IMG/VR virus record: IMGVR_UViG_3300022562_000354
Location: 1-64,000 of that record
Reading direction: 5' to 3' (one strand)
DNA from: a virus
DNA length: 64,000 nt
The translations under genes and the position numbers were made by a program. This document shows, in pieces, positions 4,824 through 47,489 of the stretch (its first letter is position 1; each line of letters begins with the position of its first letter). The notes beneath the pieces were generated by a model. It saw only the letters and a program-made list of their open reading frames with translations. It was not told where the DNA came from and ran no database searches.

Positions 4824-6194
4824 TTACCTGGGTAGAATCTCTACCCCGTGTGCAATTCCGACCTTGATTTTGTGGCGATCCCCGATCGTGAAATGTTGAA
4901 ACTCCGCATCTGACTTGGGTTCGTACTTGTAGGTATCCTTGTTGTAGGCAAGGGTCACCCGGTAATGTTCCGTACGGCCAGAGATGCGCTCTTGCTCACC
5001 TTGCCCTAATCCAACGCCCAAACGGATTTGTTCGTCGCTCGGCCAGTGGGTCTTCGTGCTCGTCCCGCTAGCCCGGACATCCCGGTTGTGGCCCCACTCC
5101 CAGACCTTCCAAGAGTACCAGTCTCGGTACCGGGGCTGGTCTTCGTAGTCGTCCACGGTGCGGTAGGCTGTCCGGTTGCAGTATTTGGGGGAACAGGACT
5201 TCGTGTCCGGGTTGCAGACTCGGTCCCCGCCCGTACAGGTCGCCGACCCGTTCTTGTTGCTCGTGCAACTTCGGGGCGTCGTGTAGCAGGAGCCTTTGAC
5301 GGTCGTACAGGTCTCCCCGCACTGGTACTGCTCCTGGTAGGACTCTTGGTGGCTCCCCACGCGAACATGGTCGTAGTGGTGAACCTTCCGGCCTTCGTCC
5401 ACTACGTCGAAGGCGCCAAGGTCCGGATCCCACCCCTCATGGCGGTAGACTTGGTAGCGCTCGACGGCCACACTCCGGTCCCAGGAGACCGCTGCGACTT
5501 GGGCGTCTATCACCTTCGTCCGGAAGATGAGATAGAGAGCTAGCCCTACCAGAATGGCCACCCCCGCTCCGATGAGAGTCCCACGGGAAGGGGTGTTGAA
5601 CCTCGGCACCCGAGGAGGCCGCATCATGTCCACCCTCCGGCTCACGTCGGCTGCGACGTCCGTGAACGAAGGGGGTGGAGTCACCTCTCGGTCGGGAGGA
5701 TCCCGGTACCCGCCCGTGTGCGGGACGAAAGGGGCCGGCTCCGGCCTCTGACGGGCTTGCTGCCGCTGCCTGAGCAACTCTTCGAGAGCTGGGTTGTGGG
5801 GGCGGTTCTTCCCCAACATCCTCTCGATGTCGTCTTTGGTCAGCTCCCCCCTGCACGCCTTGTCCTTGTCGGACATGTCCGTCTTGGGGTGAACGGCAGG
5901 CGTCTCGACCTTCTTGACCGAATCCCCCTGAGCCGACCCGCATTGAGCACAGTTGCCGTCCGCCCGGAACTGGGACGAGTCGCAGAAACGACACTTCCAG
6001 TCGGCCCCGGCCTTGAACTTGGCGAGCAACTCCGGGTCCTTGACCGCCGCCATCGGCGAGACGTCGTCCGGCATCCATTCGGGAGAGTCCTCCGAACGGG
6101 GTTTTCCGCAGTTCTGGCAGGTCTTGAAGCGACCCTTGTTGTCGGAGTTGCAGACAAGGCAACCCCAGAACATCTCGATGATGTCGGTCGGCAT
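4824..6194 (-). CDS. Membrane protein with two N-terminal zinc fingers
   Basis: This protein has 456 residues. Residues 10-32 (CLVCNSDNKGRFKTCQNCG) and about 67-87 (WKCRFCDSS...CAQCG) are two four-cysteine zinc fingers of RanBP2/zinc-ribbon style. A Pro/Arg/Gln-rich linker follows. One membrane segment lies near residues 205-225 (GAGVAILVGLALYLIF). The outer part is rich in Trp, Tyr and Cys (CGETCTTVKGSCYTTP and CSPKYCNRTAYRT), probably stabilised by disulfides. This build resembles uncharacterised bacterial membrane zinc-ribbon proteins whose outer domain starts with SWDRSVAVERY-like text. The function is unknown. It lies directly upstream of the vWA gene. Shine-Dalgarno is weak, and a CGGTGTAG element lies 14 bases upstream. 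Confidence 0.75.
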   Translation of the reverse strand: MPTDIIEMFWGCLVCNSDNKGRFKTCQNCGKPRSEDSPEWMPDDVSPMAAVKDPELLAKFKAGADWKCRFCDSSQFRADGNCAQCGSAQGDSVKKVETPAVHPKTDMSDKDKACRGELTKDDIERMLGKNRPHNPALEELLRQRQQARQRPEPAPFVPHTGGYRDPPDREVTPPPSFTDVAADVSRRVDMMRPPRVPRFNTPSRGTLIGAGVAILVGLALYLIFRTKVIDAQVAAVSWDRSVAVERYQVYRHEGWDPDLGAFDVVDEGRKVHHYDHVRVGSHQESYQEQYQCGETCTTVKGSCYTTPRSCTSNKNGSATCTGGDRVCNPDTKSCSPKYCNRTAYRTVDDYEDQPRYRDWYSWKVWEWGHNRDVRASGTSTKTHWPSDEQIRLGVGLGQGEQERISGRTEHYRVTLAYNKDTYKYEPKSDAEFQHFTIGDRHKIKVGIAHGVEILPR

Positions 6195-6208: not shown

Positions 6209-6216
6209 CTACACCG
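6209..6216 (-). promoter_or_regulatory. CGGTGTAG element; also holds the stop codon of the upstream metallopeptidase
   Basis: The minus strand reads CGGTGTAG, 14 bases before the zinc-finger membrane protein ATG. The final TAG of the element is the stop codon of the upstream gene (Ser-Val-stop). Confidence 0.55.
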
Positions 6217-7474
6217 AGAGGGTTTTGAAGCGCTCGGCCACTCTCTCAGTCAACGTAGCCACCTTCACAGCTCCCGGTAGAGCTGTTTCGAGCCACATGC
6301 GGACCTTTTCGTGAACAACTCGTGGCCCGTAGGCAACGAGCATCCCGATCGTCTCGCAGAACGCCTCTTCTTGGTTCTTGTTGGCGTACCCCGTGATCGG
6401 GTGCTTGGGGACTCGAATCTTCCGATCCCCCTGGTCGTAGAGCTTTTGAAACTCCTCTTTCTTCTGAAGCTCCCCGTAAGCGCGGTCGTAGCTGATCGCT
6501 TCGACCTGAAGGGCGAGGATGGGGTTCGTGTCCTTGAGCTTCGACGGAAACTCAAAGGCCCATGCGTCCCCAGGCCAGTTGTCGAGCAGCTCCTTGAGGT
6601 CGAGGTCGCCGTAGTCCCCTCGGATCGTCATCTGCCAAAAGTCCTGAGCCTCTTTACTCAAGTACGTTTTCCACAGGTGGTGCCCCATCTCGTGAGCGAG
6701 CGCGTGGACAACCCAATCGACGCCCTTGCTGCTCATCGAGGTCAGGTAGAAGTACACGACCCCGTTCTTGTACTCCCCACCCTGGTCTAGCTTCCCGTTG
6801 AAATGGGCAACGATGGGGCACTGCTTGCGGAGGAGAATGGGCGCAACGGCTGCCGCCCGTTGGCGGTATCGCTTCAGACCCTCTCGGAACATCGCGAGCC
6901 AGTCCGGGTGGTGATCGTCATCCGGCTCGTACCCTTGAACTTCAACCTTGAACCCCTCGATGACCGTGTTCTCGATGACCGGCATCTTCACGTCGAGGGT
7001 CTTTTTCTTCCACTCGGCAAACTCGACGATGACCTCTTTCATCTCCTTCCAGAAGACTTGAGCCTTCCGTTGGACGCGAGCCTTCCACTTGGGGGCTTCT
7101 TGCTCGAACTGCCTGAACTTTGCCTCTTCGCTGTAGTATTCGTCAGCGAAGCCGATGGGAGGTGACAGCTCGATCGAGAAGTCCCACGCCTTGGACCGGA
7201 GCCGCTTGTCGTAATACTTCGCGTCCCCCTCGGGGAGCCCCAACTCGTACTTCAAGTCGTGGTTGAGGAAGTGCTCGAAGAAGAGGTCGTTGAAGTTCTC
7301 GCGGTAGATGCGGAAGGCGTCCCTTAGCTCGTGGGCCGTCTTGTAGTCCTTCACCCTGGGGAGGTTCTTCCCAAGCGTGAGGAAGTCCTTTCGGAGCCCC
7401 TCAACCCACGCGAGGTCCAGCCGCCTCATGTTGGCGGCGTACCTGGCGACAACGGAAGGAACGAGCGGGTCCAT
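6209..7474 (-). CDS. VVAR-tagged zincin metallopeptidase (HEMGH)
   Basis: The 421-residue protein has the zinc-metallopeptidase motif HALAHEMGHH near residue 260 and a downstream Glu-rich segment (NQEEAFCETIG) that could supply the third ligand. It should be a peptidase, but its substrate is unknown. The N-terminus MDPLVPSVVARY is almost identical to that of the small protein at 22126-22392 (MDPLVNRVVARY), and similar tags occur in other proteins of this window. That match favours the ATG at 7474, although an in-frame GTG lies two codons earlier. The middle is rich in Lys, Glu and aromatic residues and looks helical. The tag suggests co-packaging with the other tagged proteins, possibly inside the virion (inference). 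Confidence 0.78.
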   Translation of the reverse strand: MDPLVPSVVARYAANMRRLDLAWVEGLRKDFLTLGKNLPRVKDYKTAHELRDAFRIYRENFNDLFFEHFLNHDLKYELGLPEGDAKYYDKRLRSKAWDFSIELSPPIGFADEYYSEEAKFRQFEQEAPKWKARVQRKAQVFWKEMKEVIVEFAEWKKKTLDVKMPVIENTVIEGFKVEVQGYEPDDDHHPDWLAMFREGLKRYRQRAAAVAPILLRKQCPIVAHFNGKLDQGGEYKNGVVYFYLTSMSSKGVDWVVHALAHEMGHHLWKTYLSKEAQDFWQMTIRGDYGDLDLKELLDNWPGDAWAFEFPSKLKDTNPILALQVEAISYDRAYGELQKKEEFQKLYDQGDRKIRVPKHPITGYANKNQEEAFCETIGMLVAYGPRVVHEKVRMWLETALPGAVKVATLTERVAERFKTLSV

Positions 7475-7476
7475 AC

Positions 7477-7734
7477 TCACCGGGTCGGGAGTTTACGGGC
7501 CATCATGCGGAGCTGGTACGTCTCTTTTTGCGCATCCTGAATGGCGCCGATCGCCTTCAAACACTGGTCGTAGTAAGGGAGGAAGTTCTTGGGGATCTCC
7601 TCCATCACATCAAACCCGTTCTTGAACGTGAGCAACGACAGGTACGCCTTCGTGGCTGCCTCATCGGCCTGAGCGGGGGCATGATACGGGAAACCTCTGG
7701 CGGTCTTGCCCCTACGGTCGTAGTCGTGGCTCAT
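7477..7734 (-). CDS. Hypothetical protein, 85 aa
   Basis: This small, mostly helical protein is not recognised. It begins with a charged segment (MSHDYDRRGKTARGF), then alternating hydrophobic and polar residues, and ends with a basic tail (MMARKLPTR). It overlaps or abuts the start of the metallopeptidase gene, so the two are probably translated together. A TTTCGATA stretch upstream (7747-7756) resembles sequences before two other genes (see findings). Confidence 0.6.
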   Translation of the reverse strand: MSHDYDRRGKTARGFPYHAPAQADEAATKAYLSLLTFKNGFDVMEEIPKNFLPYYDQCLKAIGAIQDAQKETYQLRMMARKLPTR

Positions 7735-22125: not shown

Positions 22126-22392
22126 TCACTCCTTCGTGATGTAGTCGAGGGCGTCGTCGGCGTTCTTCACGAACTCGGCGAAGTTGGAGTGCAGCTCCCC
22201 GAGCTGCTCAACGATCCACTCCATCGAGCGTTCCGTTTGGAGTCGTCGGGCGAACTGGACGGCCCGGTGCATGTTGGCTTCCGCCGCCTGCATCTCCTCC
22301 AGCATGGCCTTGGCATTCCTGGCGACGTTTGGCTCCACGGGTCCTCGGGCAATCTTGTAGCGGGCAACGACGCGGTTGACGAGGGGATCCAT
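22126..22392 (-). CDS. Tagged small protein, 88 aa (MDPLVNRVVARY)
   Basis: The ATG at 22390-22392 has GGTGA 5 bases upstream. The N-terminus MDPLVNRVVARY matches the start of the 6209-7474 metallopeptidase in 10 of 12 residues. The rest is a long helical chain (KAMLEEMQAAEANMHRAVQF...). No enzyme motif is visible. It is the last gene of the tagged cargo block and may be an internal virion or scaffold-like protein (inference). Confidence 0.68.
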   Translation of the reverse strand: MDPLVNRVVARYKIARGPVEPNVARNAKAMLEEMQAAEANMHRAVQFARRLQTERSMEWIVEQLGELHSNFAEFVKNADDALDYITKE

Positions 22393-22396
22393 AGGG

Positions 22397-22936
22397 TCAC
22401 CAATCCAGCTTCTTGTAGTCACTCAGCTCCCCACCACCTTCCATGGTTCGGCGAATGGCGATGAGCTTGTCTTCAGCGTCGTCCACGACGTCCCGACGCT
22501 TGATCTCCTTACGTAGATTCTCGACGATGGCCTTGGCCTTCTTCCCCGTGAGCTTGAGGTACTCGTCCTTGTCCGCGTAGGGGTTCCGCTTCAAGAGAAA
22601 GGCGTTCACCTTCTCAGGAACTTCGACCTCATCCCCAGACCCCCGGACGGCCTTCTCCAACTCGTCCGCCATCTTGGCGAGGGCTTTGCGGTCCCCGTAC
22701 GCAACCTCTTCCTGCTTGTGGGCGTGGAGGTAACCGATCGCGTGTTGGATGACCCCAAGGTCGTTCTTGGGTTTGAAAGCTGGCTTGCGGCCCCCCTTGA
22801 CCTGCATATCATCAAACACGGCTTTCACGTCATTCGGAACCGTGACGAGCTTCTTCGGCTTCTCCTTCGCCTCGACGAAACGAGCCACGACGTTACGGAC
22901 GATGAGAGTATCTTGGAAGTCTCGTAGTGGATCCAT
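22397..22936 (-). CDS. Tagged protein, 179 aa (FQDTLIVRNVVARF)
   Basis: The ATG at 22934-22936 lies in TGAGATG with GGAGG upstream. Residues 7-20 read FQDTLIVRNVVARF, the fullest form of the shared tag. The remainder is Lys/Glu/Asp-rich and helical (ADKDEYLKLTGKKAKAIVENLRKEIKRR). No enzyme motif is seen. The upstream gene has an almost identical segment at its internal tag. Confidence 0.68.
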   Translation of the reverse strand: MDPLRDFQDTLIVRNVVARFVEAKEKPKKLVTVPNDVKAVFDDMQVKGGRKPAFKPKNDLGVIQHAIGYLHAHKQEEVAYGDRKALAKMADELEKAVRGSGDEVEVPEKVNAFLLKRNPYADKDEYLKLTGKKAKAIVENLRKEIKRRDVVDDAEDKLIAIRRTMEGGGELSDYKKLDW

Positions 22937-22937
22937 C

Positions 22938-23594
22938 TCAGTGCCTCCAGCTCTCATCGAGCTTCGTACCAGGGTCCTTGAGAACCTTGTCGAAGTCCTT
23001 GATCACCGCATCAAGTTGCTGAGCGTAGGCGTACGTGTTGGGAAGCTGCCGCATCTTCACGTTAACAGGGACGTTGTCCCCATCCGTCTCACGATGAGAA
23101 ATCACGTTCCCGTTCCACTGACGGACGCACCTTGAAAGCCAGTCTGAGGCGTCCTCCCCACCGTACTCCCGCAAGAGCTTCTCCCCAGCCTTCGACGCCG
23201 CCATTCCATTCTCGAACAGCTTGCCGTAGGCCCGGTCGAACTTCTTGGCCGCTGACTCGTCCGCGTTCTCGACCTTGCGACGGAGAGTCTCCATCTCACC
23301 AAGGAGCTTCTTGTTCTCGGCGTACCGTTTCTCCGCCTTCTTGGCTTCCGCCTTCGCCGTGTACTCCTGCATGACGCGGGCGACGACGTTGCGGATGATG
23401 ATGGCGTCTTGGAACTCGCGAAGGGCGGCCGACTTGCCCTTGAGGTACTCCCCCGCAGGCTTGTGACAGTGCTCCGAGCCGGGGTTCTTGTGCTTACAAT
23501 AGATGCTCCAGGCAGTTGCCCACGCCTGTTCGTCCGTGTAAGACGGGTTCTTTTCCTTCACGGACTTGAAATACTTGTCGACGGGGCTCGGCAT
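22938..23594 (-). CDS. Tagged protein with Cys/Trp N-terminal module, 218 aa
   Basis: Residues 1-45 carry PVDKYFKSVKEKNPSYTDEQ and WATAWSIYCKHKNPGSEHC, a short module seen in phage structural proteins. The tag FQDAIIIRNVVARV follows (residues 61-74). The C-terminal part is a helical region with Cys and Trp (WLSRCVRQWNGN). Here the tag is internal, which suggests that the first module is a separate unit placed before it. No catalytic residues are recognised. Confidence 0.7.
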   Translation of the reverse strand: MPSPVDKYFKSVKEKNPSYTDEQAWATAWSIYCKHKNPGSEHCHKPAGEYLKGKSAALREFQDAIIIRNVVARVMQEYTAKAEAKKAEKRYAENKKLLGEMETLRRKVENADESAAKKFDRAYGKLFENGMAASKAGEKLLREYGGEDASDWLSRCVRQWNGNVISHRETDGDNVPVNVKMRQLPNTYAYAQQLDAVIKDFDKVLKDPGTKLDESWRH

Positions 23595-23598
23595 CGGC

Positions 23599-25650
23599 TC
23601 AACCCTTCATCTGCGCAGAGGCGGCAGCAAGAGCATCACGCGCCTTCGGGGGGAGCCCGGTGAACTTCTCGGACATCCACTGAAGGATCTTCTTCCCGTC
23701 CTTGGAACGGGTGAGGTTCTTGGACTTGCCGCCGTAGACGTACCGCCCAAAGACCTTCTCGTAGAGCCCACGCACCTTCATGAAGGTCGTGAAGTCCGCT
23801 TCGTTCAGGTCGAATTCCTTGGCGTTGATGATGAGCGTGAGCTGGTAGCGGGTGCTTTCCCAGTCGTGGGTCGGGTGCTTGAAGAAGCCGGGCTTCTCCC
23901 CTTCCGAGAAGCGGTCTTCCGTCGTCTTGATCTCGACGACCTGCTTGCGGGTGGCGACCGCCTCGTCGTCCTCATCCACCTCTTCGGCGTTGACGAGCCA
24001 GTGCTTGATCGACATCGCCGACCCGAACTGCACCGTGTCCTTACGCGTGGGGTGCCAGCCCTTCCCCTTGAGGTCGAAAACCTTGGAGTTGAACTTGGCG
24101 TCGCTCCCGCAAGCCTTGAGAGCCTTGACCACGTTGCCGTAGAGCCAAGCCGGGGTCTTGCCCTCGTCCCCAGAGATCGGGAACTCCCTCGACGCTACGA
24201 ACCACGTGTCGTCGTTTGCTCGACCACCGATGTAGTGCTCTTGGTAGACCTTGTGGCCCATGCCGAGGAAGACGTGCTTCGTCCCCGTACGGCCATACGC
24301 CACCTTGGCCGTGTTGGAGCGGGTGAACTCGTCCGAGTTGTACCCAGTCCCTCGCTGCATGTCCGTGATGAACAACCACTCGACGCCAGAGGGGACGCCA
24401 GCCGTCCCGTAGGCATCTTCAAAGGTGACAACCTTCGGCTTTGGGGGTTCGTAGCGAGTCCGAGGTGGCGAGTAGGACGAACCTCCGCCGCCGTAGGACG
24501 GAGCAGCGGGAGTCTTGCCGTCCAAGACATCCTTCGCCGCGTTCGCTTGGGCCATCTCCTCCGTTGTGTCACGGTCCCGGTTCAGGTCCGGGTGCAGCTC
24601 CATGACCTTCTTCTTGTGAGCAGCCTTGATCTCTTCCGGAGAGGCACCCGGCCGGACACCAAGGATCTTCTCAGCCTCCGGGATCGACATCCGAGCCCGC
24701 TTGAACCGGGCCACGACGTTACGGATGACACGGGCGTCCGCCGCCTTCTTGTTCTTACCCACTGGCTTCTCCTCGTCACCACCCATCTCAAGCGCTGCCT
24801 TGAGATCGTCGTCCTTGAGGTTCTTGATCTCTTTGGCCACCGCCGCTGCGATGAGATTGGCGAAGACCTTGTCCGGGTTGCCCTTGTCCTCGGCGGAGAG
24901 CTTCTCCATGACGTGAGCGATGCCGTGGCCGACGTGCCCCAGTTCCTCCAACACGTGCATGTGACCGAGAGCGTTCGAGACGGCTTTCATGGCCACGTGC
25001 TTGACCATGTTCTTGCCAAAGAGGCCGGCTGCGGCGAGAGGCCCCGTTGAGGTGAGGGCCGCCGCTGCGATGCCGATCGCCATGTGCGTGGCAACCGTCC
25101 TGACAGCCTTCTTCTGATGCTTGGTCATCTTTTTGCCGCTCAACACGGCCTTGATGCCCGCCCCAGCTTCCTTGTACTCGTGGACCTCTTCCTTGACCGT
25201 CTTGATGGCGTTCTTGACGATCTTCTCGGGAGCGTTCACCAACGAGTCGTGCGCCGACATGATCGTCTTGCGGCGGAAGGCGTCGTCGGAGACGAACTTC
25301 TTGACCTGCTTGGGAGCCGACTTCAGGAAGCCCGTGGCCTTGTCGCTCAGGCCCTTGAGGCGGTCCTTCCAGCTCTTCTTGGGCTTCTCCTCGTGATCAT
25401 CGTGACCCTCATCGTGGTCGTCCTCCCCTTTGTCCTTGGGAGGGGCCTTCTCAGGCTTCTCTTTCGGCTCAGGCTTCGGCTTGGGCTCCTTAGCCGGAGG
25501 CGCCTTCTGCTCCGTCTTCTTGACGGTGTGCTTGGACTTGTCCGCGTCTGGGTGCTTGCGGAGGTAGTCCTGAAGGGCCTCGGGGGTGTTGAACTCCCGA
25601 GCCTGCACCTGAAACCGAGCAACGACCTGGCGGATGAGGATGTCTTCCAT
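23599..25650 (-). CDS. Large tagged protein with J domain and Ala-rich hydrophobic region, 683 aa
   Basis: The N-terminus MEDILIRQVVARF (tag, residues 9-13) is followed by FNTPEALQDYLRKHPDADKS and VKK, a module also in the next tagged gene. A long Lys/Pro/Glu linker comes next. Residues about 165-245 are Ala/Gly-rich and hydrophobic (VATHMAIGIAAAALTSTGPL), perhaps membrane-active. A second tag RNVVARF is at residues 310-316, directly before a J domain with HPD at about 353-355. The C-terminal 300 residues are unknown. J domains recruit Hsp70 (DnaK). If injected, it could redirect the host chaperone (inference). Confidence 0.75.
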   Translation of the reverse strand: MEDILIRQVVARFQVQAREFNTPEALQDYLRKHPDADKSKHTVKKTEQKAPPAKEPKPKPEPKEKPEKAPPKDKGEDDHDEGHDDHEEKPKKSWKDRLKGLSDKATGFLKSAPKQVKKFVSDDAFRRKTIMSAHDSLVNAPEKIVKNAIKTVKEEVHEYKEAGAGIKAVLSGKKMTKHQKKAVRTVATHMAIGIAAAALTSTGPLAAAGLFGKNMVKHVAMKAVSNALGHMHVLEELGHVGHGIAHVMEKLSAEDKGNPDKVFANLIAAAVAKEIKNLKDDDLKAALEMGGDEEKPVGKNKKAADARVIRNVVARFKRARMSIPEAEKILGVRPGASPEEIKAAHKKKVMELHPDLNRDRDTTEEMAQANAAKDVLDGKTPAAPSYGGGGSSYSPPRTRYEPPKPKVVTFEDAYGTAGVPSGVEWLFITDMQRGTGYNSDEFTRSNTAKVAYGRTGTKHVFLGMGHKVYQEHYIGGRANDDTWFVASREFPISGDEGKTPAWLYGNVVKALKACGSDAKFNSKVFDLKGKGWHPTRKDTVQFGSAMSIKHWLVNAEEVDEDDEAVATRKQVVEIKTTEDRFSEGEKPGFFKHPTHDWESTRYQLTLIINAKEFDLNEADFTTFMKVRGLYEKVFGRYVYGGKSKNLTRSKDGKKILQWMSEKFTGLPPKARDALAAASAQMKG

Positions 25651-25652
25651 GA

Positions 25653-25895
25653 TCAGTCCTCGGAGCGGTCGTAGTCGTAGCCGGCCTTCTTGTCCTTCTT
25701 CTCTGTCTTCTTGTCCTTTGGAGCTGACCAGCCCTTCATGTAGTCCTCCCAGGGCTTGATCATCTGGTCCTTCTTGCGGCGGATCTCGTCGAGCTTGTCC
25801 GGGTCCTTCGAGGCGGCATTCAACCCCTCCTCAAAGAGCTTGCGGATTCGGTCCAGCTCTTTCTTGTCCTTCGGCGGCATCTTGTTGTCGGCCAT
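25653..25895 (-). CDS. Small Lys/Asp-rich protein, 80 aa
   Basis: This highly charged, probably helical protein (KMPPKDKKELDRIRKLFEEG; KKDQMIKPWEDYMKGW) ends in YDYDRSED. It lies between the two largest tagged genes but has no tag. Stops and starts are 2 bases apart on both sides. The function is unknown. Confidence 0.6.
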   Translation of the reverse strand: MADNKMPPKDKKELDRIRKLFEEGLNAASKDPDKLDEIRRKKDQMIKPWEDYMKGWSAPKDKKTEKKDKKAGYDYDRSED

Positions 25896-25897
25896 GA

Positions 25898-27232
25898 TTA
25901 GTTGCTCTCCGATTCGCCGCTCTTCCAGGCCCGGCGTCCGATGGTAGCTCCCTTGTAGATGTAGTCGGGAAGTTCGTCCTTCTTCTCGTCGATGTACTTG
26001 GAGGCGTGCTGGTAGATGTCGTCCGCGTCGAGCTTCAACGCATCGTCAGGCATCTTGTCACCGATCTTGGCCGGCTTGCCTCGCCCCTGGAACTCCCCGA
26101 AGACGAAGTTGGCGTCGTCCTTGTGCTTCTCGTAGAAGTCGTTGAAGTTCTTGGCTCCTTGAGCATAGGAGTCCGCGAACAACTGGGCGTCGACCATACG
26201 ACCGATGCCCTTTGCTCGCTCAACAACCCCCGGCCACGACTGCTTTGGGTCGGCGTGAACAAAGAGGAACGTGGGGCGGATACCGCGCTTTTTGCATTCC
26301 TCCAAGAGCCACTCGTTCTCCGTGGCGTTCTGCTCCCCAGCGGCGTCCCACGTGGCTGCGGCACTCTTCGCAAGGTCTGGCTGAGCTGCGAGCGCGGAGC
26401 CCTTGCCGGCTGCCACACCACCAGAGGTCACGAGGATCTTCCGCTTGTCCTCGGGCATCTTCGCGATCTCATCCAGGCGGCTTACGAAGGCTCGCTTGGC
26501 GATGGCGTTGGCCGCTTGGTGAAGCACGGCGTTGTACTTGCCCCGGAACTCAGCTCGCTCCGGGTTGATGGGCTCCCCCTTGGCTTCCTTCGGAAGATCC
26601 GGCCGGGACCACTCGGGGAGAAGGTTTTTGGCAGCGTCGGTCTCAAAGACCCAGTCGTTCTTCTCCGCTGCCTCGGAGAACGCCTTGGCGGCCCCATCAG
26701 GGTTTTTCTCGAAGCTCTCGTTCATACGAGCTTCGTACTTCCGCTCGTCCTCGCTCAAGTTCTGGAGCTTGGGGAGCTTCTTAGGGGGCGGGGGGACCTC
26801 CTTACCGGAGACGCCCACGCGAGCCGCTTCCTTCGGCTTCGCCATAGGCTTCGAGGTCGGGACGTGCTTCGGACCCTTGGACTTGGAGCCGCCCTCGTCC
26901 TCCTTGCTACCCTTCTCTTCGTCCTTCTTCTTGACCGTGTGGTTACCAGGATCCGCCTGGGGGTGGTCATGAAGGTACTTCTTGCGAGCCTCGGGGGTCG
27001 CGTGCTCCATCGCTTGACGGAAGCTGGCGACGATGTTGTGGACGAGAATGGCGTCTTGAAATTCGCGAAGGGCGGCGGTCTTTGTGCCCTGCTTCTTCTT
27101 GACGTGGTGGTTCTTGGGGTCGGCATCCGGGAGGCCATGAAGGTATGTCTTCCTGGCCTCCGGGGTCGCGTGCTCCATCGCCCTTCGGTGGACAGCGGCG
27201 ACGACGTTGCGGACGAGGCGAAGGTCTTCCAT
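25898..27232 (-). CDS. Tagged zeta-toxin-like kinase with duplicated N-terminal module, 444 aa
   Basis: The N-terminus has two tag-plus-linker modules: RNVVAAV (residues 8-14) with AMEHATPEARKTYLHGLPDAD, and HNIVASF (65-71) with AMEHATPEARKKYLHDHPQAD. Each module ends in VKKK. The catalytic part begins ILVTSGGVAAGKGSAL, a P-loop. NEWLLEECKKRG, PTFLFVHADPKQSW and GVVERAKGIGR follow, the order of zeta-toxin/PezT-like kinases, which phosphorylate UDP-sugars or related targets. Zeta kinases can halt cell-wall synthesis. Whether this copy is a toxin is unknown. A hairpin lies directly upstream of the ATG (27234-27261). Confidence 0.75.
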   Translation of the reverse strand: MEDLRLVRNVVAAVHRRAMEHATPEARKTYLHGLPDADPKNHHVKKKQGTKTAALREFQDAILVHNIVASFRQAMEHATPEARKKYLHDHPQADPGNHTVKKKDEEKGSKEDEGGSKSKGPKHVPTSKPMAKPKEAARVGVSGKEVPPPPKKLPKLQNLSEDERKYEARMNESFEKNPDGAAKAFSEAAEKNDWVFETDAAKNLLPEWSRPDLPKEAKGEPINPERAEFRGKYNAVLHQAANAIAKRAFVSRLDEIAKMPEDKRKILVTSGGVAAGKGSALAAQPDLAKSAAATWDAAGEQNATENEWLLEECKKRGIRPTFLFVHADPKQSWPGVVERAKGIGRMVDAQLFADSYAQGAKNFNDFYEKHKDDANFVFGEFQGRGKPAKIGDKMPDDALKLDADDIYQHASKYIDEKKDELPDYIYKGATIGRRAWKSGESESN

Positions 27233-27233
27233 T

Positions 27234-27261
27234 AGGCAGCTCTCTCTGCGTAGAGCCGCCT
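27234..27261 (-). promoter_or_regulatory. Hairpin masking ribosome-binding region of zeta-like kinase gene
   Basis: On the minus-strand RNA, AGGCGGCUCU pairs with AGAGCUGCCU (one U-G pair, about 10 bp), ending 2 bases before the ATG at 27232. This would hide the purine-rich AGAGAGAGC. It could tune translation of the putative toxic kinase or act as a terminator for ClpX-side transcripts. Confidence 0.5.
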
Positions 27262-27281
27262 ATCAAAGATTCACCGCCCCA

Positions 27282-28559
27282 TCAGGCTTGCTTGGCCTCG
27301 TTTTCCGGGTTGCCTTCTCGGAGTGTCAGAACAGCCTTCCCGGACAGCTCCGTGATGAGGGCTCGCTCGATGTTTGAGCCCGGAATGTCGTAGGAGAGCT
27401 GACGGAGGGTGTCCTCCATGATGGAACGGAGGGCTCGGGCTCCGGTAGGGCGCTTCTTCGCCTCCAAGGCAATCGCCCGGATGACCTCTTCCTCGAAGTC
27501 CAGGTGGACCCCATCCATCTGGAAGAGAGCCTTGAACTGCTTCATGATGGCATGACGCGGTTCCGTGAGGACTCGGATCATCTCGCTCTCGGTCAGCTCC
27601 AGTGTCGTCGTGAGCACCGGGAGGCGCCCCATGAACTCGGGAATCAACCCAAATTCGAGGAGGTCTTCCTCACTCGTCACCGTGTAGCTCTTGGACTTGT
27701 CGATGGTCTCACGGTGCTTCGCCCCGAAGCCCAACGAGGCACCCTTGTTGATGCGGGACGAGACGATCTCCTCGATGCCAGCGAATGAACCAGCGCAGAT
27801 GAACAGGATGTTCCGCGTGTCGATGGTGTCGTAGGCCGCCGCCATGCCGTTCTTACCCGAACGGGGCACACTCACCTTGGATCCTTCGAGGAGCTTCAAG
27901 AGCGCCTGTTGGACCCCTTCCCCGGTCACGTCCCGGTACCCTGCTCGCTCGCGGCCACCTTTACGGGCGATCTTGTCGATCTCGTCGATGACCACGATGC
28001 CCCACTCGGCTCGCTGGATGTCCCCCTGAGCGTCCTGAATGAGCCCTTGGAGCAGGGTCTCTACGTCATCCCCCACGTAGCCCGCTTGCGTCAGCTTGGT
28101 CGCGTCCCCCACGTAGAAGGGGACGTTGAGCATCCGGGCGATCGACCGCGAGATGTGCGTCTTCCCGGTACCCGAAGGGCCGAGGAGCAGGATGTTGGAC
28201 TTGTCGATCTCGACCTCTTCTTTGAGGCCCCCGCTCACCGTGATCTCGACCTTGCCGTCTTTGAGCACCTTGCGGCGTTTGAAGTGGTTGTAGACCGCGA
28301 GGGCGATGTCGGTCTTCGCCTTCTCTTGGCCGATCACGTACTCATCGAGGTACGACTTGATCTCCTTCGGTGTCTTGAGCGGTTCCTCTTTCGGCTGAGC
28401 GGCGAAGTTCCCCTTGCGAGCACCGGCCTCGATCTCCTTGGAGGCCGTCTCCACGCAGCGATTGCAGATGAATGGCCCCTCGTCGGGGTGGGCGGCGACG
28501 AGGTTTTTGACTTCGTTACGGGGCCGCTTGCAAAAGCTGCAACAGACGGGAGCGCTCAT
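27282..28559 (-). CDS. clpX: ClpX-type AAA+ unfoldase
   Basis: The 425-residue protein has full-length ClpX architecture. The N-terminal zinc-binding domain has C7/C10 and C32/C35. The AAA+ core has Walker A GPSGTGKT (127-134), the pore loop GYVGD (160-164), Walker B IVVIDEID (188-195) and the ring-loop text DVTGEGVQQALLKLLEG. The ClpP-docking loop is kept as LGFGA (276-280; IGF in E. coli). No ClpP gene is in the window, so it probably drives host ClpP, or acts alone as an unfoldase. It could redirect host proteolysis or remodel virion cargo. A CGGTGTAG element lies 9 bases upstream with no clear Shine-Dalgarno. Confidence 0.95.
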   Translation of the reverse strand: MSAPVCCSFCKRPRNEVKNLVAAHPDEGPFICNRCVETASKEIEAGARKGNFAAQPKEEPLKTPKEIKSYLDEYVIGQEKAKTDIALAVYNHFKRRKVLKDGKVEITVSGGLKEEVEIDKSNILLLGPSGTGKTHISRSIARMLNVPFYVGDATKLTQAGYVGDDVETLLQGLIQDAQGDIQRAEWGIVVIDEIDKIARKGGRERAGYRDVTGEGVQQALLKLLEGSKVSVPRSGKNGMAAAYDTIDTRNILFICAGSFAGIEEIVSSRINKGASLGFGAKHRETIDKSKSYTVTSEEDLLEFGLIPEFMGRLPVLTTTLELTESEMIRVLTEPRHAIMKQFKALFQMDGVHLDFEEEVIRAIALEAKKRPTGARALRSIMEDTLRQLSYDIPGSNIERALITELSGKAVLTLREGNPENEAKQA

Positions 28560-28568
28560 GCTCTAACA

Positions 28569-28576
28569 CTACACCG
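28569..28576 (-). promoter_or_regulatory. CGGTGTAG element before clpX; also holds upstream stop codon
   Basis: The minus strand reads CGGTGTAG, 9 bases before the clpX ATG. Its TAG is the stop of the upstream metallopeptidase gene (Ala-Ser-Val-stop), as at 6209. Confidence 0.6.
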
Positions 28577-29741
28577 AGGCCAACGCCTCCCGTACGAGTT
28601 TTTGCAGGTGTTCAGGCAATTCGGGGCGTGTTGGCTCGTCACGTCCCACCATGAGGTTCTCGAAGCGCTCTTGCACCGCTCCGTCCCAAGAGCCCTTGAT
28701 TTTGAAGTGCCCGAGAGCAAACAACTCCGCGAAAGCCTCGCCTTCCTTGCGACTGTAAGGTGAGGTCCACCAGCGGGACTTGTCGAAGTCGTCGGGAAGA
28801 TTGTGCTTTCTCTCGTAACGGTGACCTAGCTCATGCACAAGGATGTAGTCGAGGGCGCCGTAGGACCCGTGGGTGCGCTTCAAGACTTTGGGGGTCGCCC
28901 GCACCATGAGCACGTCACCCGAGGACTTGTACTTGCCCCCTGCGGTACCTTGGAAGTCTCGTGGGCTCGCCAGGGCTACCTTGAGACCCCCCGATAGGGC
29001 CTTCCGGCGCCACCCTTTCAGGTCGTCCCAGATGGACTCCAGCGTGGTGACGTAGTGCCCGAGCTTTTTCTGGTCGAAGCCTACGAGGTTGAGGTAGGTG
29101 TTCCCGCCGACCGTCACCTCTTTGGGGACGATCTTCCCACCCTCGTTGGAGAAGTACCGGATCAGGTCGCCCGCCATAGGCTTGATGTCCTGCTCCCAGG
29201 CGCGTTTGGCCGCCCCCTCGCTGGCGGGGTTGCGGAAGGATTCCCCCTGGTAGTTCTTCTTGGTCCCCGCATCTTGCAGGAACCACCAAAGGGAATGCGC
29301 CTTGTTTTTCAGGTCCTTCTGGCCTTGAGGTGTCTTCGGGGAGTCGAAGCGGAAGGTATCCTTGAACCACTCGGCGATCTCGGCAGCCTCATCCGGGTCG
29401 AAGTGGGCGAACAGGCCGTCTATCTTCCGCATAAGCTCGTCGAGCAAGCTCGCTGAGAACATGAACCGAGCCGCCACCCGGCGAGCCATCCGGTCCTGGT
29501 AGAAAAAGGCGACCCGTTCTTCTATCGAGGCCCCGGACTTCTCGATCTTCTCCAACTTGTCGTAGTAATTGGGGTCTTCAGTCAGATGGTCGTACGCTAT
29601 CTCCCGAGCGATCTGAGGATCGTCGGTATGCTCCATCTCGACGCGAACCCCCTTCGCGACCTGAGCGGGGTCTACCCCTTCGGGTGGTCCCTTGTCCGCC
29701 AATCCGCCTGGGATTTTGTCTTCGAGTGAGGTGGGGAACAT
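28569..29741 (-). CDS. VAAR-tagged zincin metallopeptidase with DUF5661-like N-terminus
   Basis: The protein has 390 residues. Residues about 13-65 match the DUF5661 type (GVDPAQVAKGVRVEMEHT and IAREIAYDHLTEDPNYY). A tag-like stretch MARRVAARF follows near residues 85-93. The zinc motif is VHELGHRYERKH near residue 300, with EGEAFAELFALG downstream as the probable third-ligand helix. It is predicted to be a peptidase. It is the second of three tagged zincins in the window. The ATG at 29739-29741 is preferred over the TTG one codon earlier. The substrate is unknown. Confidence 0.78.
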   Translation of the reverse strand: MFPTSLEDKIPGGLADKGPPEGVDPAQVAKGVRVEMEHTDDPQIAREIAYDHLTEDPNYYDKLEKIEKSGASIEERVAFFYQDRMARRVAARFMFSASLLDELMRKIDGLFAHFDPDEAAEIAEWFKDTFRFDSPKTPQGQKDLKNKAHSLWWFLQDAGTKKNYQGESFRNPASEGAAKRAWEQDIKPMAGDLIRYFSNEGGKIVPKEVTVGGNTYLNLVGFDQKKLGHYVTTLESIWDDLKGWRRKALSGGLKVALASPRDFQGTAGGKYKSSGDVLMVRATPKVLKRTHGSYGALDYILVHELGHRYERKHNLPDDFDKSRWWTSPYSRKEGEAFAELFALGHFKIKGSWDGAVQERFENLMVGRDEPTRPELPEHLQKLVREALASV

Positions 29742-29744
29742 CAA

Positions 29745-30512
29745 TCACACATCCGCGTAAACAATGCAGTCCTCGCTCCACACGAGACCCTCGCAGTGGA
29801 CCTTGCCGCTCGGTTCGATGACGCAGATGCCGCCTTCACCGAAGTTGTTGTTTGCCTCCCGGCCGTAGCGGTTGGAGACGATCAAGGTAGTCTTGTTCTC
29901 CTCGACGAAGTCCATCCACGAGGTCGCCGGGAATGCTCCGTCCCCGAAGTTGGCTGACAAGCAAACGATGTCCGCATCACCCGGCTGGTACAGGTCCGTC
30001 CATGTCTTGGAGACCTTGTCCCTGATGTCCCGGCATACGAGTAGACCAACCCGCCGCTCGACCCCGTCAAAGTTGGCCTTCACAACGGGAGGGTTGGACC
30101 TCCCCGCTTCGGCCCAGAGGAAGTCGTTGGCCCAGCGGTTGATCTTCCGCATCGACTCCAAGTAGCCGAAGGGGTCCACGTAGACCTGACTGTTGAACAG
30201 CTTGTTGGTCTTGTCGTCCAGCTCCACCATCCCCCACACGAGGTGGACGTGGAGCTTGGCAGCGAGTTGCCCCATGAGCTTCACGGTGGGGATTTCGTCG
30301 ATGGCTCGAAGAGCCGGACCGAGGGTGATGACCTCAGCATCCACGAGAGCCTCACCCGGCCCCATGTACGAGTAGCCCGTCGTTGCCAGCTCAGGCATCA
30401 CGATGAGCTTCGCCCCACCGGCCGCTGCCTGCTCAACGAGCTTCACCAAGCGGCGTTGGTTCTCCCGCTTCTGACGGAAGGCCGGGGCAAACTGGATCGT
30501 GGCTACCTTCAT
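29745..30512 (-). CDS. Nitrilase-superfamily amidase
   Basis: The 255-residue protein has the Glu-Lys-Cys triad context of the carbon-nitrogen hydrolase fold: MPELATTGY (E41), MRKINRW with the catalytic Lys near residue 122, and LLVCRDIRDK with the Cys near 161. It should hydrolyse an amide, with glutamine or a small amide as likely substrate. It could be the glutaminase domain type linked to NAD synthesis, but no NadE is in the window. It sits between two tagged metallopeptidase genes and carries no tag itself. The stop of this gene abuts the next start. Confidence 0.82.
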   Translation of the reverse strand: MKVATIQFAPAFRQKRENQRRLVKLVEQAAAGGAKLIVMPELATTGYSYMGPGEALVDAEVITLGPALRAIDEIPTVKLMGQLAAKLHVHLVWGMVELDDKTNKLFNSQVYVDPFGYLESMRKINRWANDFLWAEAGRSNPPVVKANFDGVERRVGLLVCRDIRDKVSKTWTDLYQPGDADIVCLSANFGDGAFPATSWMDFVEENKTTLIVSNRYGREANNNFGEGGICVIEPSGKVHCEGLVWSEDCIVYADV

Positions 30513-30549
30513 GGGTCACCCATGGGTAGCTTACAAGAAGAACCGGGAA

Positions 30550-31353
30550 TCAAAACAGCAACCCAAGCCGATCGAGGTTGTAGTAGACCGCCTTGAGGAT
30601 CTTCGCCTTGTTCGTTGGAGTCAGAACCCCTTCGACTTCCTTCCACGTAGTCGAGAGCCGAAGGGCTAGATTCACCAGCTCTTGATTGGAATTTCGAGCG
30701 TGGTTGCGGATGGCTTCCATCTTCGCGTAACGCGGAGTTTCATCCACGACTTGCTGCATCCACGCTCGAACCTCAGACGGGTGGTTGATGTACGCCCGGT
30801 ATTCGCTGTCCGAGAGGTCCCCTTGGGACGGGATTTCACTCTTGTTGGGGTTCTTTGCCGAGGGGTTCTTCTCTTTGAAGACCGAGTCGGCCGCATGCGT
30901 GGCTTCGTGGATGAGGATCGAAAACAGCGAGTACGGGAGACAGGTCTCGTGCGAACACGACCAGATTGGCTGGGTCATGCGCTCCGACTGGAAGTCCTCC
31001 GGAGTGAAGGCCCCGTTCAGTTCGAGAACGATGACCGGACCACCGTGCCACGTTCCGAAGCCCCCACCTAACAGCGCCGTCCCCTTGTTCCTCGATGAAC
31101 GGCTACGGACTAGGACTAGAACGTCAACGGTACCCTTCCCGTCAGCGGCATCGACACTCAGCCTTCGGCTGAGGATCTGATTGACGGACCCAAGAGGCTC
31201 ATCTTGAGGTTGGCGTCGTTTCATCCACGTGATGACATCGGGTGCCAACTCGTGTGTGACGAAGCGCTCGATCTCTTTCTTGTCGATCCCTACCGGACGA
31301 GCGGCAAGCCTAACGGCATACCTTCGAGCCACGCGGATCGCCATCGGGTCCAT
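30550..31353 (-). CDS. VARRY-tagged zincin metallopeptidase (HEATH)
   Basis: The 267-residue protein starts MDPMAIRVARRY, a divergent form of the shared tag. The zinc motif LIHEATHAAD lies near residue 147, and PSEVRAWMQQVVDE downstream could supply the third ligand. This is the third zincin with a tag-like N-terminus in the window. The N-terminal third is charged and helical, and the middle has Gly-rich strands (LLGGGFGTWHGGPVIVLELN). Substrate and specificity are unknown. It begins the tagged cargo block that runs down to 22126. Confidence 0.72.
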   Translation of the reverse strand: MDPMAIRVARRYAVRLAARPVGIDKKEIERFVTHELAPDVITWMKRRQPQDEPLGSVNQILSRRLSVDAADGKGTVDVLVLVRSRSSRNKGTALLGGGFGTWHGGPVIVLELNGAFTPEDFQSERMTQPIWSCSHETCLPYSLFSILIHEATHAADSVFKEKNPSAKNPNKSEIPSQGDLSDSEYRAYINHPSEVRAWMQQVVDETPRYAKMEAIRNHARNSNQELVNLALRLSTTWKEVEGVLTPTNKAKILKAVYYNLDRLGLLF

Positions 31354-46590: not shown

Positions 46591-47471
46591 ACTGGTCCGC
46601 CCCCCGACCGTCGCTTCTTGGGGTTGAACTTGGACCGCCCCCCGCCAAGCACGGGATCGAGAATTGGGTCCAGATCAACCTCCGGTTCAGGCTCCGGAGC
46701 CGCCCTCTTTGGGCGTTGCTTGGGTTCGGCTACAGCCACGGCCTTGGTGGTCTCGTCATCGACGGACAGCCCGACGTCATCGTCGGTAAGCCCTGGGCCG
46801 CCGCCTTCGATGGGGAAGACCTCAAAACGGTCACGGATGTAGTCGGCCACGTCCCGGCTCCACGTGTAGTGACCTTCCTCAAAGGGAGAATCGGGCTCCT
46901 CCACGAGCCACGTGGGTAGCCTCAACGCTTGCCGTACCATGAGGGCCTCTTTCAAGATGCCGCCCATGGCTTGGTTCTTCCACCCGAGGAACCCCAGCCG
47001 AATGATGGCGAGGGTGTGCATCGGGCCAATGAGGTCTTCGATCGTGTTGTAGGTGGCGATCTCATCCGCCCGTTGCTTCTTGCTGCGGGCTTGGTTCGAC
47101 TCCTTGCCGAACCAGACGTTGCGGAGCTTCTCGTCCGTCACGACCGTAAACGAGAAGCCCTCCAGACCCACCGTGTTGAACTTGCAGATGAACGTCCACT
47201 TGAAGTGGGAGAGTATGGCAGACCACCACCCCTTCAAGATGAGGTTGTTCTTCGTCCTGTCGATGACCGGGGGCTCCCCGTGCTCCACGGCCGGCTGGTA
47301 GAGCGGGCTCTCCTGTCCGAGCTTTGCCATGGCAATCTCAGGCCCCAGCCGAAGCACCACCCGCTTGTTGTAGACGCACACGCAGGACTGCATCCGGTCC
47401 GCCTCGACCTCGATGCGATGACCTAGCCCGTGGCAATGCGGGCAGTCGGGATCCGGTGTTACTGAAGCCAT
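46587..47471 (-). CDS. Zinc-finger protein, possible DnaC-like helicase loader
   Basis: The 294-residue protein begins with CPHCHGLGHRIEVEADRMQS and C-V-C, a zinc group. Its middle has FTVVTDEKLRNVWFG and ATYNTIEDLIGPMHTLAIIR, then VRQALRLPTWLVEE and RDVADYIRDRFEVFPI. That resembles the C-terminal half of DnaC/DnaI loaders without a recognisable P-loop. The C-terminus is basic and Pro-rich. Position directly before the DnaB-like helicase supports a loader or adaptor role. A CGGTGTAA element lies 10 bases upstream. Confidence 0.58.
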   Translation of the reverse strand: MASVTPDPDCPHCHGLGHRIEVEADRMQSCVCVYNKRVVLRLGPEIAMAKLGQESPLYQPAVEHGEPPVIDRTKNNLILKGWWSAILSHFKWTFICKFNTVGLEGFSFTVVTDEKLRNVWFGKESNQARSKKQRADEIATYNTIEDLIGPMHTLAIIRLGFLGWKNQAMGGILKEALMVRQALRLPTWLVEEPDSPFEEGHYTWSRDVADYIRDRFEVFPIEGGGPGLTDDDVGLSVDDETTKAVAVAEPKQRPKRAAPEPEPEVDLDPILDPVLGGGRSKFNPKKRRSGGGPV

Positions 47472-47481
47472 CCGGGAATGC

Positions 47482-47489
47482 TTACACCG
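47482..47489 (-). promoter_or_regulatory. CGGTGTAA element before loader-like gene
   Basis: The minus strand reads CGGTGTAA, 10 bases before the ATG at 47471. The leader GCATTCCCGG has no clear Shine-Dalgarno. Confidence 0.58.

Follow-up and report, generated by a model that had tools for sequence, protein, structure and literature searches.

Head-carried, injected proteins of giant phages are known for very few cultured phages. The subject of this report is a short peptide with the conserved core [LI][VIA]xRV[AV]AR[FY]xxA (the tag), which recurs on otherwise unrelated proteins encoded in the window, a 64,000-base stretch of viral DNA comprising bases 1-64000 of the 109,944-base record IMGVR_UViG_3300022562_000354 (the whole contig is called G000 below). 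The closest described counterpart is the capsid-targeting sequence (CTS) of phage T4, which, like the tag, is a short N-terminal peptide on diverse accessory proteins (IPI, IPII, IPIII and Alt); as with the tag, its cargo includes an ADP-ribosyltransferase and anti-restriction proteins, and both occur in large tailed phages that encode a head protease. The T4 proteins IPII and IPIII start with MKTYQEFIAE (seen on translation of T4 ipI-ipIII), and these ten residues suffice for packaging (PMC9026906).

Other systems also share features with the tag. In phage P1, N-terminal residues of DarB send this injected effector to the head, and 30 of them suffice (PMC9024508), but no common sequence is detectable among the P1 Dar proteins, whereas the tag is common to dozens of proteins. 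The inner-body or ejection proteins of phiKZ and SPN3US illustrate that giant phages package many accessory proteins, but their N-terminal propeptides are processed at A-x-E and, unlike the tag, are mostly long (111-254 residues, with two of 20 and 24; PMC10052503). Zincin and ADP-ribosyltransferase cargo that is predicted to be injected is likewise found in the polyvalent proteins encoded by phages and conjugative elements (PMC5512222), yet each of these is a giant chain of many domains, whereas the carriers of the tag are short proteins with a small common peptide and fall outside that class.

The tag also differs from the T4 signal. A direct comparison of the T4 ipI-ipIII products with the tag logo revealed no sequence resemblance (MKTYQEFIAE versus LxxRVVARFxxA); the phages that use the tag have a phage G-type head protein and lack Gp23; copies also occur at C-termini and between domains, with no cleavage motif found; and there are up to ~27 carriers in one phage. 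Because it neither resembles the T4 sequence nor occurs with a Gp23 head, the tag is set apart from the T4 CTS, to which it appears to be analogous without being a member of that family. The tag is probably an address by which accessory proteins are loaded into the virus head and then delivered to the host. If this is true, the task for which T4 uses its CTS has been solved a second time, independently, by the tag.

The sequence-only reading that drew attention to this peptide had listed ten copies, each of which was found in the gene to which it had been assigned, including RNVVAAV and HNIVASF, which are weaker variants. When a 13-column score matrix derived from 53 tags of four other phages, with G000 left out of the training, was run on the 105 proteins called on this contig, the same ten copies and one new C-terminal copy made up the best eleven matches. 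An N-terminal tag of at least 10 bits is present in six G000 proteins, whereas 200 within-protein shuffles gave none in 176 cases, one in 22 and two in 2. An apparent carrier at contig positions 69260-69931 was discounted, as the peptide is not kept in its orthologs.

Four related contigs show how widely the tag is used. One of them (G001, 286 kb) was reached via the window DNA polymerase (70% identity), and the others (G021, 513 kb; G023, 184 kb; G030, 363 kb) via two small cargo domains; the gene calls in all contigs are our own, and counts may shift slightly. With a second matrix trained on G000 and G001 only, 67 proteins across these contigs (184-513 kb) contain a tag within the first 30 residues, versus ~4 in shuffles (0.6-1.3 per contig). 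These N-terminal tags number 12/356 in G001 (itself within the training set), 27/737 in G021, 10/179 in G023 and 18/419 in G030, and the three held-out phages together have 55 tagged proteins versus ~3-4 expected (shuffle counts for G021, G023 and G030 were 2.2, 0.4 and 1.8 in one set and 1.3, 0.6 and 1.2 in another). Outside N-termini no comparable excess is seen: the counts are close to those of shuffles in G021 (14 versus 10) and G023 (3 versus 4) and modestly above them in G030 (11 versus 6), and some of these matches are explained by copies at domain junctions.

Proteomes from outside the lineage gave 2/353 for Tunturi_5, 1/493 for phage G (first 381 kb) and 0/204 for the T4-type contig G031, and a profile search of 27 records returned matches in 16 and none in eleven, including nine unrelated giant phages that bear DUF5661. 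The possibility that the tag is only a generic helix found at random in phage proteins is excluded by the shuffles and these out-of-lineage controls, and the claim that many otherwise unrelated proteins have it in common extends further than originally proposed; the carriers belong to ~45-50 unrelated families. Recurrent N-terminal peptides were also sought by a crude unsupervised method, with a threshold too low for several proteomes, which recovered the clusters in G023 and G031 and nothing clear in Tunturi_5 or phage G. Among annotated phages, no relatives of the window proteins were found by DNA, and none by protein for 25898-27232 or for G001 195430-195765; a search of the published literature, mostly outside subscription journals, returned no report of the peptide.

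The tag is a helical peptide of 13 to 22 residues, and its core is often preceded by LR[ED]FQDA (the long form) or by M-x-[DE]. A logo built from the N-terminal tags (n = 74) drops to almost no information directly after xxA, while the last A of the core and, further upstream, the long-form residues D, F and R are conserved though they lie outside the selection matrix. The peptide is basic (charge +2.6 versus −0.1 for other N-termini) and amphipathic (hydrophobic moment 0.43 versus 0.26). Since identical residues in the window copies are often encoded by differing codons, recent duplication of DNA is disfavoured as the origin of these copies. The sequence-only reading had also suggested a processing signal. 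A protease site after the tag was sought in the logo of 74 and not found (no residue is conserved beyond +3 from the aromatic), and C-terminal copies are not removable in the manner of an N-terminal propeptide, so cleavage of this type is unsupported.

Copies in the window, where all of the genes cited are on the minus strand, occur at both termini and at domain junctions (residue numbers are match positions among the best eleven). N-terminal copies are found in a zincin with the motif HEMGH (6209-7474; MDPLVPSVVARY, residue 3, core at 7433-7468), in a small helical protein (22126-22392; MDPLVNRVVARY, residue 3, core at 22351-22386) that is homologous to the C-terminal half of G001 4880-5317, in a protein without an assigned function (22397-22936; long form MDPLRDFQDTLIVRNVVARFVEA, residue 11, core at 22871-22906) and in a zincin with the motif HEATH (30550-31353; MDPMAIRVARRY, residue 3, core at 31312-31347), the G030 homolog of which (88026-88754) is also tagged. 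The zincin 6209-7474 has a second, C-terminal copy, TLTERVAERFKT, that the first reading missed (residues 407-419, TLTERVAERFKTL, core at 6221-6256).

Internal copies lie at domain junctions. The fused protein 22938-23594 contains a long-form tag (LREFQDAIIIRNVVARV, residue 65, core at 23367-23402) between a 'KNPGSEHC' domain and a helical domain, and its two halves are separate genes in G001 (4880-5317 and 111665-112219). A second fusion, 23599-25650, has an N-terminal tag (residue 4, core at 25606-25641), a 'YLRKHPDADKSKHTVKK' domain and another tag (residue 307, core at 24697-24732) immediately before its J domain. The zeta-like kinase 25898-27232 starts with two tandem units of tag plus 'YLHxHPxADPxNHTVKK' (residues 5 and 62, cores at 27185-27220 and 27014-27049), which places a copy between the repeated units, and in 28569-29741 the tag (RMARRVAARF, residue 84, core at 29457-29492) lies between a DUF5661 domain (1.6e-10) and a zincin (HELGH). 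The domains that flank junction tags occur as stand-alone tagged proteins in the relatives, and in G021 (279499-281715) counterparts of the window zincins 6209-7474 and 28569-29741 are joined in one chain. Further C-terminal copies are present in G021 274706-276049, G023 1482-2786 and the G030 topoisomerase 70657-71388; because C-terminal matches over all proteins number 8 versus 3 in shuffles, such copies are trusted only if they score highly and their family is tagged elsewhere.

Some of the original functional assignments are firmer than others. The J domain of 23599-25650 is solid (DnaJ, 4.7e-10), and the zeta-like kinase does match Zeta_toxin, but weakly (0.003). The count of three zincins holds by motif, each of them containing HExxH, but the Pfam match of 6209-7474 (Peptidase_Mx1, 0.01) falls below the cut-off and the other two have no noteworthy match.

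The cargo is diverse. A set of 82 proteins with a tag of at least 9 bits within the first ~45 residues groups into ~52 families, of which a few are chance matches and 32 are singletons, and most carriers have 70-500 amino acids and one or two domains. HExxH occurs in 14/82 tagged versus 26/1714 untagged proteins (odds ratio 13, p 5e-10), a count that includes one or more chance HExxH motifs among the tagged proteins and in which the tagged set is defined slightly differently from that used to count families. Other carriers include J-domain and zeta-like proteins, topoisomerase IB and a G021 protein (460734-461924; L144:4734-5924, minus strand) with a DRAT-type ADP-ribosyltransferase domain (1.1e-10) that parallels T4 Alt. 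A tagged G030 protein (313489-314184; L173:9489-10184, plus strand) belongs to the S-adenosylmethionine (SAM) lyase family (PF23780, 2.6e-12) and is likely an anti-restriction enzyme; phage SAM-degrading enzymes counter restriction (PMC7877911). For zincins, ADP-ribosyltransferases and anti-restriction proteins as classes, packaging and injection are known or predicted (PMC5512222, PMC9503650, PMC3012670), and this cargo fits a role in host takeover. AlphaFold models of the SAM lyase (pLDDT 43) and a zincin (pLDDT 54) were of insufficient quality; in the latter the two tags appear as separate terminal helices at low confidence.

Of 427 proteins that have homologs in each of the four relatives, only 8 are tagged, and these comprise topoisomerase IB, a 126-135-residue protein, one zincin fusion and one weak match. 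Both topoisomerase IB and the 126-135-residue protein adjoin the terminase gene and, zincins aside, they are the only clearly tagged families kept in all four relatives. No tag was scored in the polymerase, helicases, terminase, portal, major head or head protease proteins.

The head genes of these phages allow the cargo of two capsid lineages to be compared. G001 encodes a head maturation protease, a portal and a phage G-type major head protein, the capsid relatives of which were found in phage G, Tunturi_5 and mycobacteriophages. Gp23 was found in G031 only and not in G001, G021, G023 or G030, the head protein of which is of the phage G type. In G031, the CTS-like peptide MKxVKLFE[EDQ]F[LIV]xE is present on a zeta-like kinase, a zincin-like protein (a weak case), a GNAT protein and a DUF5824 protein; a DUF5661 protein has a variant of it, and in another contig MKSFNQFINE stands immediately before DUF5661. 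In the lineage that uses the tag, it is the RVVARF peptide that is found on DUF5661, zeta-like and zincin proteins (in the window and in G008 46764-47483). Like cargo with another peptide in another capsid lineage matches the prediction of a capsid-specific loading label.

The major head proteins of the four relatives are 94-98% identical despite the 184-513 kb range of the contigs. In the head cassette, a protein encoded at G001 136474-140400 (L100:3474-7400, minus strand) has ~1310-1340 amino acids in G001 and G030 and ~360 in G021 and G023, and the large insertions in G001 and G030 start next to a tag-like helix. The 1308-amino acid G001 protein, which has a tag pair near its N-terminus, was not counted as a tagged head protein, and the pair was not used as proof because the shorter G021 and G023 orthologs lack it.

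The earlier proposal of a shared sorting signal is strongly supported by the many unrelated families, the sharp bounds of the peptide, its independent codons and its terminal or junctional placement. Loading into the head is favoured because of the type of cargo, the conserved carriers in the packaging cassette and the exchange of the tag for a CTS-like peptide on the same kinds of proteins, so virion packaging and injection, also proposed earlier, are favoured rather than demonstrated. In such a scheme, this lineage of giant tailed phages would fuse a basic amphipathic helix to accessory proteins, and the helix would bind a head component (scaffold or core, or the inner shell). The tagged cargo would then be taken into the prohead during assembly and packaged with the DNA, to be ejected and delivered at the start of infection. 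If the tag is a loading label, injected effectors of an uncultured giant-phage lineage become readable from sequence, many of them without an assigned function and likely directed against host defences, and it could become a tool for loading chosen proteins into phage heads.

Several points weigh against head loading. Virion proteomics for a phage with the tag was not found, the probable scaffold (G001 132503-133951) was chosen by position only, and the contig that contains the window lacks its head genes. The missing cleavage motif and the C-terminal or internal position of some copies are unlike T4, and many carriers adjoin a clpX-like gene, so another role for this cluster is possible. In addition, a matrix scan found the tag to be absent from phage G and Tunturi_5, the nearest cultured relatives by capsid; because these share the phage G-type head yet lack the tag, it is either specific to a sub-lineage or has diverged past recognition in them.

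The basic, amphipathic character of the tag resembles that of helices that bind membranes or nucleic acids, and some giant phages form compartments (PMC13282480), so the tag could instead direct proteins to a membrane, a phage-made compartment, the nucleoid or a host protein during infection. We consider such a non-virion destination unlikely, since the universally conserved tagged families include the topoisomerase IB and small protein beside the terminase gene, the cargo is like packaged cargo, proteins of these kinds have a CTS-like peptide in a T4-type phage, and the capsid belongs to the phage G lineage (no search was made for a phage-nucleus shell gene). A docking or oligomerisation helix that builds a cytoplasmic complex, either mutually or via one common partner, might account for the two copies in several carriers and for the shuffling of domains between them. 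This explanation is compatible with head loading, but as a substitute for it we find it distinctly improbable, as it leaves the terminase-side carriers and the exchange with a T4-like peptide unexplained.

The proximity of the tagged cluster to a clpX-like gene in the window and related loci raises the prospect that the phage ClpX-like unfoldase recognises the tag and remodels or degrades the tagged proteins. That role is very improbable: in G021 the tags are scattered far from the clpX-like gene (at 3, 22, 59, 136, 169, 203, 393, 414 and 460-505 kb), a degradation tag would be of no benefit to enzymes that are meant to act, and C-terminal and interdomain copies are unlike N-terminal degrons. 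The evident gene fusions and fissions among carriers, such as the zincin fusion G021 279499-281715, are what would be expected if a terminal module had spread by recombination with no sorting function. Descent alone is, in our view, the least credible explanation, because the 13-residue limit, the synonymous divergence, the restriction to accessory and terminase-side proteins and the ~50 unrelated families require selection on the peptide itself.

It is tentatively proposed that head loading in this lineage may rely on a modular, position-independent address system with no sequence relationship to the T4 signal, which is used at the N-termini, C-termini and junctions of ~50 families and in which some of the cargo has at least one other, exchangeable address (YDRR). 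Were this so, tags for head loading would have had independent origins in separate phage lineages and would allow the injected effectors of uncultured giant phages to be listed from sequence. This second terminal peptide starts window gene 7477-7734 (minus strand) as MSHDYDRRGKTA, and a variant, GYDYDRSED, ends 25653-25895 (minus strand). Elsewhere, it appears as MSHDYDRRTAA in G001 250432-250749 and at about nine termini in G030, where a loose pattern gave 13 terminal matches versus 2.3 in shuffles. The G030 protein 109887-111146 has YDYDRRGSA where its relatives bear the RVVARF tag; it falls in the J-domain cluster by blastp, and its own Pfam scan shows no J domain. A consecutive trio of genes (L117 4174-5130, 5159-5650 and 5662-6726) has a common terminal peptide like KLIKLGHTNPELRDHLRPVL, which is possibly a further tag.

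The ClpX-like AAA+ protein of the window (27282-28559), which was assigned by sequence reading without a profile search, is untagged, and the neighbourhood of its gene is alike in the relatives. A nitrilase-like gene (29745-30512, minus strand), so named by the same kind of reading, adjoins it and recurs in the matching neighbourhood of several relatives.

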